Under the pieces are notes generated by a model. The model was not told the origin of the DNA. It worked only from the letters and a program-made list of their open reading frames with translations, and did no database searches. Of a DNA stretch of 64,000 bases, positions 13,224 to 53,085 are shown one piece after another. The stretch comes from Dolosigranulum savutiense (GTDB taxonomy: Bacteria > Bacillota > Bacilli > Lactobacillales > Carnobacteriaceae_A). The stretch is taken from positions 1 through 64,000 of the forward strand of contig NZ_CP142435.1 of the NCBI RefSeq assembly GCF_039830095.1, given 5' to 3'. The stretch's first letter is position 1. Each line of letters opens with the position of its first letter. Position numbers and translations under genes: made by a program.

Positions 13224-13264
13224 CTAAAAAAAGCAACGTCTTCTTACCGACGTTGCTTTTTTCT
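13224..13264. terminator. Bidirectional terminator
   Basis: AAAAAAGCAACGTC pairs with GACGTTGCTTTTTT between the convergent OsmC-like and ABC-F genes. Confidence 0.92.
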
Positions 13265-13282
13265 TACCTAAATTAACTCACT

Positions 13283-14866
13283 CTACTCTAACGCTTCTAT
13301 TTCTTTCTTTTCTGCCACTAACTGGTCGAACTGCTCTTGAAGCTGTTCATCATCCGGATCTAAGCTCAGCCTTCCTAGAATCTCACTTATTCGATTATTC
13401 AACTGAAGCAAGCGGTCATGCTGATGATCACGCTTCGTCTGAGGATTATAGGCTTGGAATTCACTGAGCGTGCCTTCAAACAATTGCAACGTATTCTGAT
13501 CAATAACTAGCAGTTGATCGCACACAGCTTCTACAATAGACTGATCATGTGAAGCAAGTATAATCGTCCCCGGATACTCTATCAACAACTCCTCCAATGC
13601 AGCAACTGCGTAAATATCTAAATAATTCGTCGGTTCATCCAAGACCAATACATTAAAATCCCCTACTAGAATCTTGGCTAAGGCGACTTTTACTCGTTCC
13701 CCACCGCTTAATACGCCGACTAATTTTCGGATATCCTGCTCATAAAAGCCCATCCGAGCTAAAACGACTCGACAGATTGTCTCAGACTGAATAGATGTCT
13801 CCATTACATTAACTAACACAGTCTCTTCTGTTTTTAACACAGACAAATTTTGAGCAAAATAACCAAATTTCACTTGCGGATTAACTTGAATATCTGGGTG
13901 CTTGCTTGACAATAACATCTTAAGTAAAGTCGTCTTCCCCGCACCATTATCTCCGATCAGACCAATCTTCTGTCCACCGATTAACTGCAGTGTAGCTGGC
14001 TTCCACAATGTCTTGTGCTCTACCCCACCAGCTAATTCATGAAATCGAATAATGGTCCGCTCGCGTAACTGTTGCTGATTAGGCACCTCCATTTCAATAG
14101 TACTTAATTGCTTAGGTTTCTCTACGGGCTCTAGTTGCTTTATTTGAGTCTCAATTGCCTGACGATTTTTATGCAACTTTTTCTGCTTCCCCGCATAATA
14201 AATGGCCGCACCTATTTGCCGTCGATCCGGGTCTGATACAGACTTTGGAACGACCGTCGCTCGCTCTGCCTGTCGCCTTTTCATTTCAGCAGCTTTTTCT
14301 AACTGCCGCTTTTTCTTCTGATACTTTTCATATTCCTTTTGTTGATGTCTCCGCTTTCGATCTCTCTCAATTATATAATCCGAATAATTTCCCGAATATA
14401 CTGTTACATTGCCCTCATCTAGCACCCAAATCTCTGAGCAGGTTTCATCCAACAGATGGCGATCATGTGAAACCAAAATCACACCTGCATCCATTATTTT
14501 CAACTTACGCTCAACCCATTGACGATGGCTCGCATCTAAATTCGTCGTCGGTTCATCTAACAACAATAGCTTCGCCCGGTCTCTAGTCGCTTGAAGAAAG
14601 AATTCACTCGTTATTTCGCCCCCGCTCGCACCTTGTGTCTGTTCTTGCTTTAATTGGGGCATTAAGTGAGGAACTCCCTCAACTTTCACCGTGCCACTAT
14701 CTGGCAGTATCTCTCCCTTAATTAATCTTAACAGTGTGGTCTTCCCTTGACCATTTTTACCGATCAACCCCACAACTTGTCCTGCATGTAGTTGCAAATG
14801 ATCAATATCAATCAACAACCGCTCTCTTATACTATACGTTACATCTTGCAATTCTAACACTTGCAT
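13283..14866 (-). CDS. Vga-type ABC-F ribosomal protection protein (predicted)
   Basis: Soluble tandem-ABC protein of 527 residues with no membrane segments. ABC1 has Walker A GLIGKNGQGKTT, a PQL Q-loop and then, after only about a dozen residues, a degenerate signature ASGGE: the shortened first domain typical of Vga(A)-like proteins. A charged alpha-helical interdomain linker with AGKQKKLHK follows, then ABC2 with GDNGAGKTT, LSGGERVK and LDEPTNYLD. Such ABC-F factors displace pleuromutilins, lincosamides and streptogramin A from the ribosome; resistance here is inferred, not shown. The frame extends upstream, but AAAGGTGG favours ATG 14866. The 5' leader contains an attenuator. Confidence 0.85.
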   Translation of the reverse strand: MQVLELQDVTYSIRERLLIDIDHLQLHAGQVVGLIGKNGQGKTTLLRLIKGEILPDSGTVKVEGVPHLMPQLKQEQTQGASGGEITSEFFLQATRDRAKLLLLDEPTTNLDASHRQWVERKLKIMDAGVILVSHDRHLLDETCSEIWVLDEGNVTVYSGNYSDYIIERDRKRRHQQKEYEKYQKKKRQLEKAAEMKRRQAERATVVPKSVSDPDRRQIGAAIYYAGKQKKLHKNRQAIETQIKQLEPVEKPKQLSTIEMEVPNQQQLRERTIIRFHELAGGVEHKTLWKPATLQLIGGQKIGLIGDNGAGKTTLLKMLLSSKHPDIQVNPQVKFGYFAQNLSVLKTEETVLVNVMETSIQSETICRVVLARMGFYEQDIRKLVGVLSGGERVKVALAKILVGDFNVLVLDEPTNYLDIYAVAALEELLIEYPGTIILASHDQSIVEAVCDQLLVIDQNTLQLFEGTLSEFQAYNPQTKRDHQHDRLLQLNNRISEILGRLSLDPDDEQLQEQFDQLVAEKKEIEALE

Positions 14867-14906
14867 ACAGTCACTTCCACCTTTCATTCTCGTGGAAATA
14901 AGAATA

Positions 14907-14940
14907 CAAAAAAGAACCTCTATATAGATACAGAAGTCCC
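14907..14940 (-). terminator. Attenuator hairpin in the ABC-F leader
   Basis: GGACTTCT pairs with AGAGGTTC (two G-U pairs, 10-base loop) and is followed by six T on the minus strand. It lies between the promoter at 15080-15088 and the ABC-F start, so it should abort transcription unless the leader refolds. Confidence 0.7.
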
Positions 14941-14945
14941 CTGTG

Positions 14946-14984
14946 TCAACCACAATGCACTCCCATTTCCGACAACTTAAACAT
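14946..14984 (-). CDS. Candidate 12-residue leader peptide of the ABC-F attenuator
   Basis: ATG to TGA encodes MFKLSEMGVHCG, and its stop codon lies six bases before the attenuator stem. A ribosome stalled here could change leader folding. The Shine-Dalgarno is poor (GTAGG). A three-codon alternative (MSN, 15030-15041) with AGAGG upstream also exists in the same leader, so which frame is translated is open. Confidence 0.3.
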   Translation of the reverse strand: MFKLSEMGVHCG

Positions 14985-15079
14985 GCCTACATTTCTGCAA
15001 GCTTAAAACTATTTGTCTTTGAAATGGAATTAATTGCTCATCGCTTTGTGGTTAACCTCTTCTCTTTTTTATTGACTTT

Positions 15080-15088
15080 ATTATAACA
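15080..15088 (-). promoter_or_regulatory. Extended -10 promoter of the ABC-F leader
   Basis: TGT plus TATAAT lies on the minus strand about 210 bases ahead of the ABC-F start. There is no good -35. The leader of some 200 bases between here and the gene holds AACCACAA (15046-15053), complementary to TTGTGGTT (14948-14955), plus the attenuator. Confidence 0.55.
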
Positions 15089-15230: not shown

Positions 15231-16280
15231 TTATTTTTTATCTCTACAAGTAACCCCACTATCCAAGATTTTAAATTGGTTAGTAATGGTGTTAAGCTGA
15301 GCTTGCATGCCATATGGGAGAATACATTTAGGCTCATTGTGTCCAAAATTCATATTATACAAAATCGGTAAGTCTTCTCGACCAAATTCTTTCATGACTT
15401 TCGGATAAACTTTTTGATACTCTTCATAATAGACACCATCTTGCGGTCGACCAACAATAATCCCATGAATAACCTCCAAAATTCCCATCATACCATATGT
15501 TCTGAGCTCATCTTCCAAGCATGCTGGTTTCATATAATTCTCAGATGTTTCTAAAAATAAGATGGCCCCCTGGAACTGATCAACACTTGGAAATAAAGAC
15601 GTACCGCGGAGCGAAGCTAACGTTTCTACGCAGCCTCCCAGTAAATGACCGGTCGCCACAGTTTCTGCTCCTAATGACTGATAACCCGGATTCACCCGGT
15701 ATTCGCGCGCAATTTCCCGGTTTTCTTCATCCCACAACAAGCCAAACTTTCGCAAATGCTTCGATGCACGAATTTCCCCAATCGGTTCATCAGAAAACCA
15801 AGCACGTTGGATATGATCAACGGTATAATCATCCATTGCAATATTTTCGGCAAAATCGGTTAGCAAAGCGGGGCCATAATGACTGGATACACCGGCCTTG
15901 TAAAACATGAGGTGATTGGTTGTCGTATCCGAGTACCCACAAAACAAGGTCGGATGCTCTCTAATAACGTTAAAATCAATATATGGTAATAAGCGTACCG
16001 TCTCAATCCCACCAATACACGATATAATCCCTTTAACTTCAGGATCCTTCAGGGCCATCATTAAATCTTCTGCTCGTTTTTCTGGATGTTGGTATAAATA
16101 ATCACTTCCGCTCAACGCATGATCCATCACTTTTACACAGAGATCAAAATTATCTTCTAGGCGCTGAATCCCTTGTTCAGTACGCCACTTGAAGTGAGCA
16201 TCACCGGCTGTTCCGGCTGATAGGGATACGATAGCAACTGTATCTCCAGGATATAATTTAGATGGGCGACGTAACTCCAT
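15231..16280 (-). CDS. S66 family peptidase, MccF/LD-carboxypeptidase-like
   Basis: Cytoplasmic serine peptidase of 349 residues with the S66 triad: nucleophile Ser117 in CGYSDTT, Glu244 in LFLETSE and His314 in FGHNEP. Family members either trim L,D-tetrapeptides in murein recycling (LdcA) or hydrolyse microcin C-type peptidyl nucleotides (MccF). The length and the GVSSHYGPALLTDF segment look closer to the MccF branch. There is no signal peptide. A GAAAGAGGGAG site precedes the ATG. It sits directly upstream of the ABC-F gene on the same strand but is separated from it by the latter's own promoter; any joint resistance role is inference. Confidence 0.85.
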   Translation of the reverse strand: MELRRPSKLYPGDTVAIVSLSAGTAGDAHFKWRTEQGIQRLEDNFDLCVKVMDHALSGSDYLYQHPEKRAEDLMMALKDPEVKGIISCIGGIETVRLLPYIDFNVIREHPTLFCGYSDTTTNHLMFYKAGVSSHYGPALLTDFAENIAMDDYTVDHIQRAWFSDEPIGEIRASKHLRKFGLLWDEENREIAREYRVNPGYQSLGAETVATGHLLGGCVETLASLRGTSLFPSVDQFQGAILFLETSENYMKPACLEDELRTYGMMGILEVIHGIIVGRPQDGVYYEEYQKVYPKVMKEFGREDLPILYNMNFGHNEPKCILPYGMQAQLNTITNQFKILDSGVTCRDKK

Positions 16281-51183: not shown

Positions 51184-53085
51184 CTATACAAATTCAGCTA
51201 AATATTCCCACCGTGCCATTTTTTCTTCGAGGGCTGCTTCCAATTCTTGTTTTTTTCCATTCAATTCATTCAACATCCCATAATCGTCCGCCCTCACTTC
51301 CAACATCTCTTGTTCGACAGCTGCGATTTTGTCTTCAAGTTTTGTTATCTCATCTTCAATCGTTTCCCACTCTTTCTTTTCCATATAAGTCAAGCGAGTT
51401 TTCTCTTGAGACGAACTAGCTTCCGATGTCGACAGTGACTTATCTTGCGCAGATTTCGCCGTTTTATCAGAGCGACGAGTTGACGAGTCATTCGCTTCTT
51501 TTAAATAATCGCTTACTTTGCCCCAATATTCGCGAAGTTGTCCCGCTCCTTCAAAAATCAATAATTTTTCACACGTTTTATCCAAGAAGTAGCGATCGTG
51601 ACTAACGGCAATCACTGCGCCCGTAAAATGATCGATATACTCTTCCAAAATAGTCAATGTCTCTGTGTCCAAATCATTGGTTGGCTCATCTAATAATAAA
51701 ACATTCGGCGAAGTCATCAGTAAGCGAGCTAAATATAAGCGTCGTTTCTCGCCTCCCGACAAACTTGAGATATAAGACTGTTGCATTGAGCGTGGGAACA
51801 AGAATTGTTCTAATACTTGTTCAGCGGACGCCACAGAACCATTTGCCATCGTCACTTCTTCAGCCATCTCTCGTACATAATCGATAACCCGTAAATCATC
51901 CGTCATTCCTTCATTGGTCTGAGTATAATAAGCAATCTTAACCGTCTCACCTACTTCTAGCTGCCCGCTATCAAGCGACTGACGCCCAGCCAAAATATTA
52001 AGTAATGTAGTCTTGCCAGACCCATTCTCCCCAGTAATTCCAAGTCGTGTATCAGCTTGAATTAACAAATCAAGTTGTTGAAGTAGTTGCTTACCATTAC
52101 GAGCAAACGATGCTTCTTGCAGTTCCAAAACTTTTTTTCCTAAACGACTGCCCGCCAAGTTCAAAGTCATCGTGCCTCGAGTCGTTTGATTTTGAACGGT
52201 CTCTTTTAAGTCTTCGAAGCGATCTTTACGCGCTTGTTGCTTGGTTCCACGCGCTCGTACGCCTTCACGCATCCAAGCTAACTCTTGTTTATATAATTGG
52301 TTGGCTTTATGAGCTTGCTCAGCTGCTAATTCCTCACGATGCGCCCGCTCTTGAACATAGTCTTGATAGTTCCCACTATAGCGATGTAGTTGGCCTCCAG
52401 AGAGTTCTACAATTGACTGTACCACATGATCTAAGAAATACCGATCGTGCGTTACCAACAGCAAGGCCCCTTTATATTGACTTAAGAACTTCTCTAGCCA
52501 AGCAATCATCTCATAATCTAAGTGGTTCGTTGGCTCATCTAAAATCAATAAATCTGATTGCTGAATCAGCACTTGTGCTAATTGTACGCGTTTTTGCTGA
52601 CCACCTGAAAGTTCATGAACGCATTTATCCATCTCATAAATCCCAAGCTTGGTTAGAATGGTCTGGGCTTGCGAACTCGCCGTCCAACCATCCACCCGAT
52701 CCATGGCTTGCTGCATTTTGGTAAATCGATTTTGTAGTTTTTCATTCGTCGGATCTTGATTCAGTTTCCCAACAACTTCTTCATAGTCACGTACTGTGTT
52801 CATCAGTGGATTATCCCCGGCAAAAACAGTCTGAAGAACCGTTAACTCCTGATCCAACGTATTCGCTTGTTTCAAATATGCAATTTTATAATCTTTCGGA
52901 CTCGTTATTTGACCCGATTCTGGTGCGTTCATCCCCACCAACGTATCTAAGAGTGTTGTTTTTCCAGTTCCATTAATCCCGATTAACCCAACCTTATCCC
53001 CGCTCTGAAGCGACAGATCAACTCCATCGAACAACACTTTCATCCCTATTGATTGTGAAATACCGCTTGCTTTCAATTCTTTCAT
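51184..53085 (-). CDS. ABC-F ATPase, Uup-like
   Basis: Soluble tandem ABC ATPase of 633 residues without membrane segments. ABC1 Walker A GINGTGKTT, signature LSGGQQKR and LDEPTNHLD; ABC2 GENGSGKTT, LSGGEKRR and LDEPTNDLD. The C terminus is a coiled coil (about 545-633) as in Uup, which binds branched DNA or ribosomes. It has both full ABC domains, unlike the Vga-type ABC-F at 13283, and looks like a housekeeping member. First gene of the uup-thyA-folA unit. Confidence 0.9.
   Translation of the reverse strand: MKELKASGISQSIGMKVLFDGVDLSLQSGDKVGLIGINGTGKTTLLDTLVGMNAPESGQITSPKDYKIAYLKQANTLDQELTVLQTVFAGDNPLMNTVRDYEEVVGKLNQDPTNEKLQNRFTKMQQAMDRVDGWTASSQAQTILTKLGIYEMDKCVHELSGGQQKRVQLAQVLIQQSDLLILDEPTNHLDYEMIAWLEKFLSQYKGALLLVTHDRYFLDHVVQSIVELSGGQLHRYSGNYQDYVQERAHREELAAEQAHKANQLYKQELAWMREGVRARGTKQQARKDRFEDLKETVQNQTTRGTMTLNLAGSRLGKKVLELQEASFARNGKQLLQQLDLLIQADTRLGITGENGSGKTTLLNILAGRQSLDSGQLEVGETVKIAYYTQTNEGMTDDLRVIDYVREMAEEVTMANGSVASAEQVLEQFLFPRSMQQSYISSLSGGEKRRLYLARLLMTSPNVLLLDEPTNDLDTETLTILEEYIDHFTGAVIAVSHDRYFLDKTCEKLLIFEGAGQLREYWGKVSDYLKEANDSSTRRSDKTAKSAQDKSLSTSEASSSQEKTRLTYMEKKEWETIEDEITKLEDKIAAVEQEMLEVRADDYGMLNELNGKKQELEAALEEKMARWEYLAEFV

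Follow-up and report, generated by a model that had tools for sequence, protein, structure and literature searches.

A chromosomal Vga-type ABC-F gene with a leader predicted to act by ribosome-mediated attenuation of the vmlR kind

The window, by which we mean the whole 64,000-nucleotide stretch of DNA that was analysed, carries on its minus strand a Vga-type ABC-F gene with a leader of about 207 nt. Because the coding sequence begins at the ATG at 14866, the span 13283-15088 holds both the gene and its leader. Transcription was placed from the predicted promoter as starting at ~15073. The locus has the following features.

15109-15080, minus strand: extended -10 promoter, GTGTCA-18-TGtTATAAT, from a promoter search and the sequence
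15063-15056, minus strand: Shine-Dalgarno sequence of the uORF, AGAAGAGG, left unpaired just before SL-1 in the predicted fold
15056-14945, minus strand: SL-1, the predicted anti-antiterminator, with an outer helix (15056-15043/14958-14945) and an inner helix (15029-15013/14975-14961)
15041-15030, minus strand: putative regulatory uORF, ATG AGC AAT TAA (Met-Ser-Asn, MSN), a tripeptide with a match at the same place in relatives
14984-14946, minus strand: 12-aa frame ATG..TGA, MFKLSEMGVHCG, within the 3' strand of SL-1
14942-14908, minus strand: U-tract hairpin (14942-14911) with its U-run (14913-14908), from the predicted fold and a terminator search
14901-14892/14880-14871, minus strand: SL-4, a hairpin of the predicted fold that hides the ribosome-binding site of the gene
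14866-13283, minus strand: Vga-type ARE1 ABC-F ribosome protection gene, 527 aa, with the ATG start at 14866
13257-13232, minus strand: terminator-like inverted repeat 3' of the gene, AGCAACGTC...GACGTTGCT followed by a T-run, found by eye and absent from the terminator search listing

In a search against 197 NCBIfam families, the Vga profile NF000170 was the top match of the encoded protein with 609 bits over residues 1-523, compared to 403 bits for CplR and 387 bits for Msr. The score stays below the cut-off of 725 bits at which NCBI names a protein from NF000170, and we therefore call it Vga-like or Vga-type and give it no vga allele name. The cut-off for general ABC-F protection proteins was passed (465 vs 380 bits). 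The nearest solved structure was Vga(A)LC (7nhl, 463 bits) followed by VgaL (7nhn, 322 bits), and the identity to staphylococcal Vga(A)/Vga(C) was 43-47%. The reading frame is intact, both catalytic glutamates, E105 and E411, are kept in the alignment, and a C-terminal extension is present and aligned to the end. The first ABC domain is shortened, with a 20-column gap before the first signature relative to MsrE. The resistance loop has the same length as in Vga(A) and shares Gly219, Ala220, Tyr223 and Gly226 with it; at loop positions 219, 220 and 226, Vga(A)LC has residues other than those of the window protein. Tyr223 and residue 219 of Vga(A)LC were previously discussed as relevant for resistance (PMC8196190). 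A tree was built with annotated Vga(A), Vga(C), Msr(A/E/I), Lsa(B), OptrA, PoxtA and EttA. It placed the window protein inside the Vga clade (support 83/89), separate from Msr and the other ABC-Fs, and divided the Msr-plus-Vga group from the remaining ABC-Fs with support 100/100; the branching order around the window protein within the Vga clade was without resolution. A preliminary description of this DNA had claimed a Vga(A)-like ABC-F with a shortened first ABC domain, and profile, tree and alignment all agreed with it. The phylogeny that it had proposed as a check put the protein with Vga, apart from Msr and from housekeeping ABC-Fs. By its family placement the coding sequence is a Vga-type ARE1 ABC-F, for which a function in PLSA resistance is predicted. 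A second ABC-F gene, with a 637-aa open frame and 30% identity along part of its length, lies at 51469-53079 on the minus strand and clusters with non-Vga ABC-Fs.

The Vga-type gene stands among housekeeping genes. On one side it is flanked by aspS, hisS and genes for an amidase and an OsmC-like protein, and on the other by genes for an S66 peptidase and a formate/nitrite transporter and by rbfA, infB and nusA. We recognised no mobile element in this neighbourhood, and the base composition around the gene is ordinary. The gene is probably monocistronic because of the terminator-like inverted repeat at 13232-13257. The peptidase S66 gene (LD-carboxypeptidase family) is located shortly upstream, at 15231-16280 on the same, minus strand; some S66 proteins (MccF) confer immunity to peptide-nucleotide antibiotics. 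In a survey in which the genus was represented by one genome, strong full-length matches (E <= 1e-110) were found in 17 of 27 searched genomes of the family, the other 10 being without one, and in 8 of 368 genomes elsewhere in the order. Related genes are also found on plasmids of staphylococci and Jeotgalibaca. The preliminary description had called the gene possibly intrinsic; the housekeeping setting would fit this, but the 10 genomes without a strong match and the plasmid-borne relatives would not. None of four neighbour genes was found in the flanks of the relatives' genes, flanks that were ~1.5 kb long for most. On a Jeotgalibaca porci plasmid, a gene of the Vga family that has this type of leader (locus L044, 1-555 and 1001-2569) lies near an IS256-family transposase, which is a possible route of spread. 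In another genome (G016, contig C81; loci L042 and L023) a Vga-type gene is directly preceded by an Msr-like ABC-F gene whose frame contains a single TAG, so that two types of ABC-F stand in tandem.

The leader has a minimum free energy of -67.7 kcal/mol, compared to -44.7 +/- 4.3 kcal/mol for 200 shuffles (z -5.4), and of 594 window segments of 224 nt with matched GC content none folded as well. A leader of about 200 bases with an extended -10 promoter had been described before, and the length of 207 nt and the predicted promoter at 15109-15080 bear this out; promoter-like matches in the region were, as a class, not above chance. In the predicted resting fold the outer helix of SL-1 encloses the uORF, and the MSN codons are held in an unpaired stretch of SL-1. 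The complementary strands that had been pointed out earlier, AACCACAA (15053-15046) and TTGTGGTT (14955-14948), pair with each other at the base of this long stem. The uORF Shine-Dalgarno sequence lies 14 nt before the AUG, and almost every leader had a spacing of ~13-17 nt here, which is longer than usual. The U-tract hairpin has a predicted free energy of -13.7 kcal/mol with three G-C and five G-U pairs and is followed by six U. The preliminary description had called it a terminator hairpin with T6 at 14940-14907; a hairpin with U6 is indeed present at 14942-14908, but it is weak, and the terminator-like match alone was within chance (1 found vs 1.5 expected). It may be a weak intrinsic terminator, a pause hairpin, or both. 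Further downstream, the ribosome-binding site of the gene, AGGTGG at 14882-14877, is sequestered by SL-4 in the predicted resting fold. Rfam covariance models gave no match in the window at the gathering score and none at E 1 in the leader, and a riboswitch or another Rfam family was rejected on these grounds.

A tripeptide uORF is found at the same place in 16 relatives of the family, in 14 as MRN and in one each as MLN and MRK. Outside the family, the tripeptide is MIN in S. aureus vga(A), MKY in Jeotgalibaca porci and MRN in Furfurilactobacillus, and four genomes of another family have MYN. The second codon encodes Ser in the window and Arg in most relatives. The motif ATGNNNAAYTAA by itself is not rare, with 7 occurrences in the window vs 2.8 expected, and significance from the motif alone was rejected; it carries weight because it is conserved in the relatives. 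Of the two short frames noted previously, both exist, and conservation points to 15041-15030 as the sensor, whereas the 12-aa frame is buried in the stem and had no counterpart in any relative's leader compared. The two native SL-1 strands of a leader fitted each other more closely than strands exchanged among leaders, and only 2 of 5000 permutations reached the native value; for the antiterminator strands, 0 of 5000 did. The co-varying strands, coming from related and not independent sequences, are evidence for a working switch under selection, and both the uORF and the switch strands have been maintained at 43-51% protein identity to the relatives. In one relative (L026, genome G002) the Vga leader is apart from its gene, with the terminator more than 300 nt upstream and then unrelated sequence; it looks as though the link between attenuator and gene had been broken by an insertion.

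The induced state was modelled as a stalled ribosome that masks the first uORF codons, and all folding was thermodynamic and in silico. Two helices are predicted for this state.

14966-14959 paired with 14937-14930, minus strand: antiterminator AT1, which forms only with SL-1 opened
14970-14956 paired with 14908-14894, minus strand: induced helix AT2, 15 consecutive pairs, -17.6 kcal/mol

In the model, the stalled ribosome prevented the outer helix of SL-1. With the transcript end at 14922, the probability of AT1 then rose from 0.00 in the free RNA to 0.98, and it was 0.96-0.99 with the ribosome stalled while the transcript end moved from 14922 to 14916, compared to 0 without a ribosome. AT2 captured the 5' strand of SL-4, and its probability rose from 0 to 0.98 while that of SL-4 fell from 0.98 to 0.00 and the unpaired fraction of the ribosome-binding site increased from 0.22 to 0.56. 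Equal pairing of the strands surrounding AT2 was reached in only 1 of 2000 shuffles, and the translational switch was independent of the ribosome mask. SL-4 and the 15-bp competing helix AT2, both absent from the preliminary description, model as the strongest switch of the leader. The completed U-tract hairpin had a probability of 0.85 at equilibrium with the ribosome on the AUG and of 0.03 at 14908 with the ribosome two codons past the AUG. A loss of this hairpin at equilibrium with an AUG-stalled ribosome disappeared when the mask was widened over the Shine-Dalgarno region, and the claim of such a loss was weakened accordingly. Since a ribosome on the AUG only leaves the U-tract hairpin closed at equilibrium, transcriptional antitermination must be kinetic and model-dependent, and at the U-tract it is plausible on kinetic grounds only.

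The best explanation, to which we give a probability of about 0.85, is that ribosome-mediated attenuation of the vmlR kind controls this chromosomal ABC-F gene of the ARE1 Vga type. The support consists of the sequence family, the conserved uORF, the co-varying strands and the two mutually exclusive predicted folds; the layout of ribosome-mediated attenuation that had been proposed is the best-supported reading. We infer the steps from use of the promoter and uORF translation through ribosome stalling and termination to induction and resistance. Counting against this reading are the Vga score below the naming cut-off, Ser as the second uORF codon, the long Shine-Dalgarno spacing, which the relatives share, the weak AT1 pairing, the U-tract hairpin that an AUG-bound ribosome leaves closed at equilibrium, and the purely computed nature of all folds. 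Without drug, the MSN tripeptide would be translated and the ribosomes would depart, SL-1 would close, and the U-tract hairpin could then end transcription, while in any readthrough RNA SL-4 would hide the ribosome-binding site. With a pleuromutilin, lincosamide or streptogramin A present, a ribosome would stall on the first uORF codons and SL-1 would not form. The freed 3' strand of SL-1 would first take the 5' strand of the terminator (AT1), giving readthrough, and next the 5' strand of SL-4 (AT2), exposing the binding site. The Vga-type protein would then be made, bind the ribosomal E site and dislodge the drug. It is very likely that the gene would be switched on only when PLSA drugs stall ribosomes on the three-codon uORF.

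The weak U-tract hairpin may also suggest that the switch is mainly translational, with this hairpin as a pause hairpin (the equivalent of SL-2 in vmlR) or a leaky terminator and with the old strong terminator turned into the hairpin that hides the ribosome-binding site. We regard this as possible but as the less probable account. Most relatives with the same uORF have a strong terminator (roughly -13 to -24 kcal/mol) that follows an additional hairpin, whereas the window leader has one hairpin only between SL-1 and the Shine-Dalgarno hairpin; because the separate strong terminator of the relatives is absent, translational control may dominate. In line with this, the distance between uORF and gene is 175 nt in the window vs 206-283 nt in the relatives, the terminator/antiterminator pairing (AT1) ranks 17th and last in strength among 17 leaders, and AT2 is very strong against the Shine-Dalgarno hairpin and robust to the ribosome mask. 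The TTCTTT at the U-tract hairpin also fits the NusG pause motif TTNTTT (PMC9226507). However, the hairpin has six U after it and forms with a probability of about 0.9, and in vmlR the terminator counts most for repression. An assignment of the hairpin to SL-2 by words shared with the relatives (GGACUUCUGUA) was rejected, as 472 of 2000 shuffles matched and other words pointed to SL-3, so that word matches to either hairpin are within chance. Tentatively, then, the leader could be an attenuator in which the separate strong terminator has been lost and the main control has passed to translation, via the 15-bp pairing in AT2 of the 3' strand of SL-1 with the 5' strand of SL-4. If true, it would show one sensor passing between transcriptional and translational output.

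It is unlikely that the gene is constitutive or silent, with the leader a relic and the protein in another role, for example as a translation factor for difficult nascent chains. Dolosigranulum pigrum strains, which may not be of the host species, are broadly susceptible except to erythromycin (PMC8547433), and this would fit a relic, but the intact frame and catalytic residues and a uORF and switch strands kept at this degree of protein divergence argue against it. Finally, the 12-aa frame is open and stops just before the terminator, but that it encodes a regulatory leader peptide, as in the elongation-stalling attenuators msrD or ermC, is very improbable given its weak start context and its place inside the 3' strand of SL-1, and with Vga-spectrum drugs stalling at first codons; it was rejected as the sensor for its lack of conservation in the relatives.

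Under the attenuation reading, the locus would add a chromosomal, apparently drug-inducible PLSA protection factor from a lactic-acid-bacterium family. Resistance catalogues based on identity could miss the gene, whose identity to the vga alleles compared does not exceed 47%. The MXN tripeptide sensor and co-varying strands across several families offer natural variants for asking which tripeptide senses which drug, and the compact window leader lets transcriptional and translational control be separated.

In vmlR of B. subtilis, the uORF (MIN) lies in SL-1 and is followed by the pause hairpin SL-2, the terminator SL-3 and the Shine-Dalgarno-hiding SL-4; the sensor was proved by toeprints and mutants, and the uORF variants MDN, MDK and MRK are also functional (PMC9226507). 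The window leader resembles it in a length of ~210 nt, a Shine-Dalgarno sequence before SL-1, a tripeptide uORF in the unpaired part of SL-1, a downstream U-tract terminator, an antiterminator from the 3' strand of SL-1 and a last hairpin that sequesters the Shine-Dalgarno sequence. It differs in having MSN instead of MIN, one hairpin with a weak terminator instead of SL-2 and SL-3, and an ARE1 Vga-type instead of an ARE2 protein; a vmlR-style SL-2 pause hairpin and a strong SL-3 were not found as separate elements in the window leader. The staphylococcal vga(A) and vga(C) genes (plasmid loci L046 and L043) belong to the same protein family, and the leader of S. aureus vga(A) likewise encloses its uORF, MIN, in a helix (CCAACUAC/GUAGUUGG) and has a terminator. 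In contrast to the window gene they are plasmid-borne, and vga(A) has a strong separate terminator of -16.8 kcal/mol. Attenuation was reported for vgaA (PMC12421871) and vgaL (PMC11550727). The vgaL gene of Listeria monocytogenes (lmo0919, with rli53) is also a chromosomal ARE1 ABC-F gene with lincomycin-induced conditional termination; VgaL is more distant from the window protein, at 322 bits vs 463 bits for Vga(A)LC. In Clostridioides difficile, cplR has the uORF MRI and is under both transcriptional and translational control (PMC10201436), and it shares with the window locus the short uORF and the combined attenuation at both levels that is predicted for the latter. It belongs to another ABC-F subgroup (403 vs 609 bits for Vga), and its single hairpin acts as terminator and sequesters the Shine-Dalgarno sequence, whereas the two hairpins are separate in the window leader. 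The kind of system is thus already known, and the window locus adds a slightly unusual case with architectural variation.
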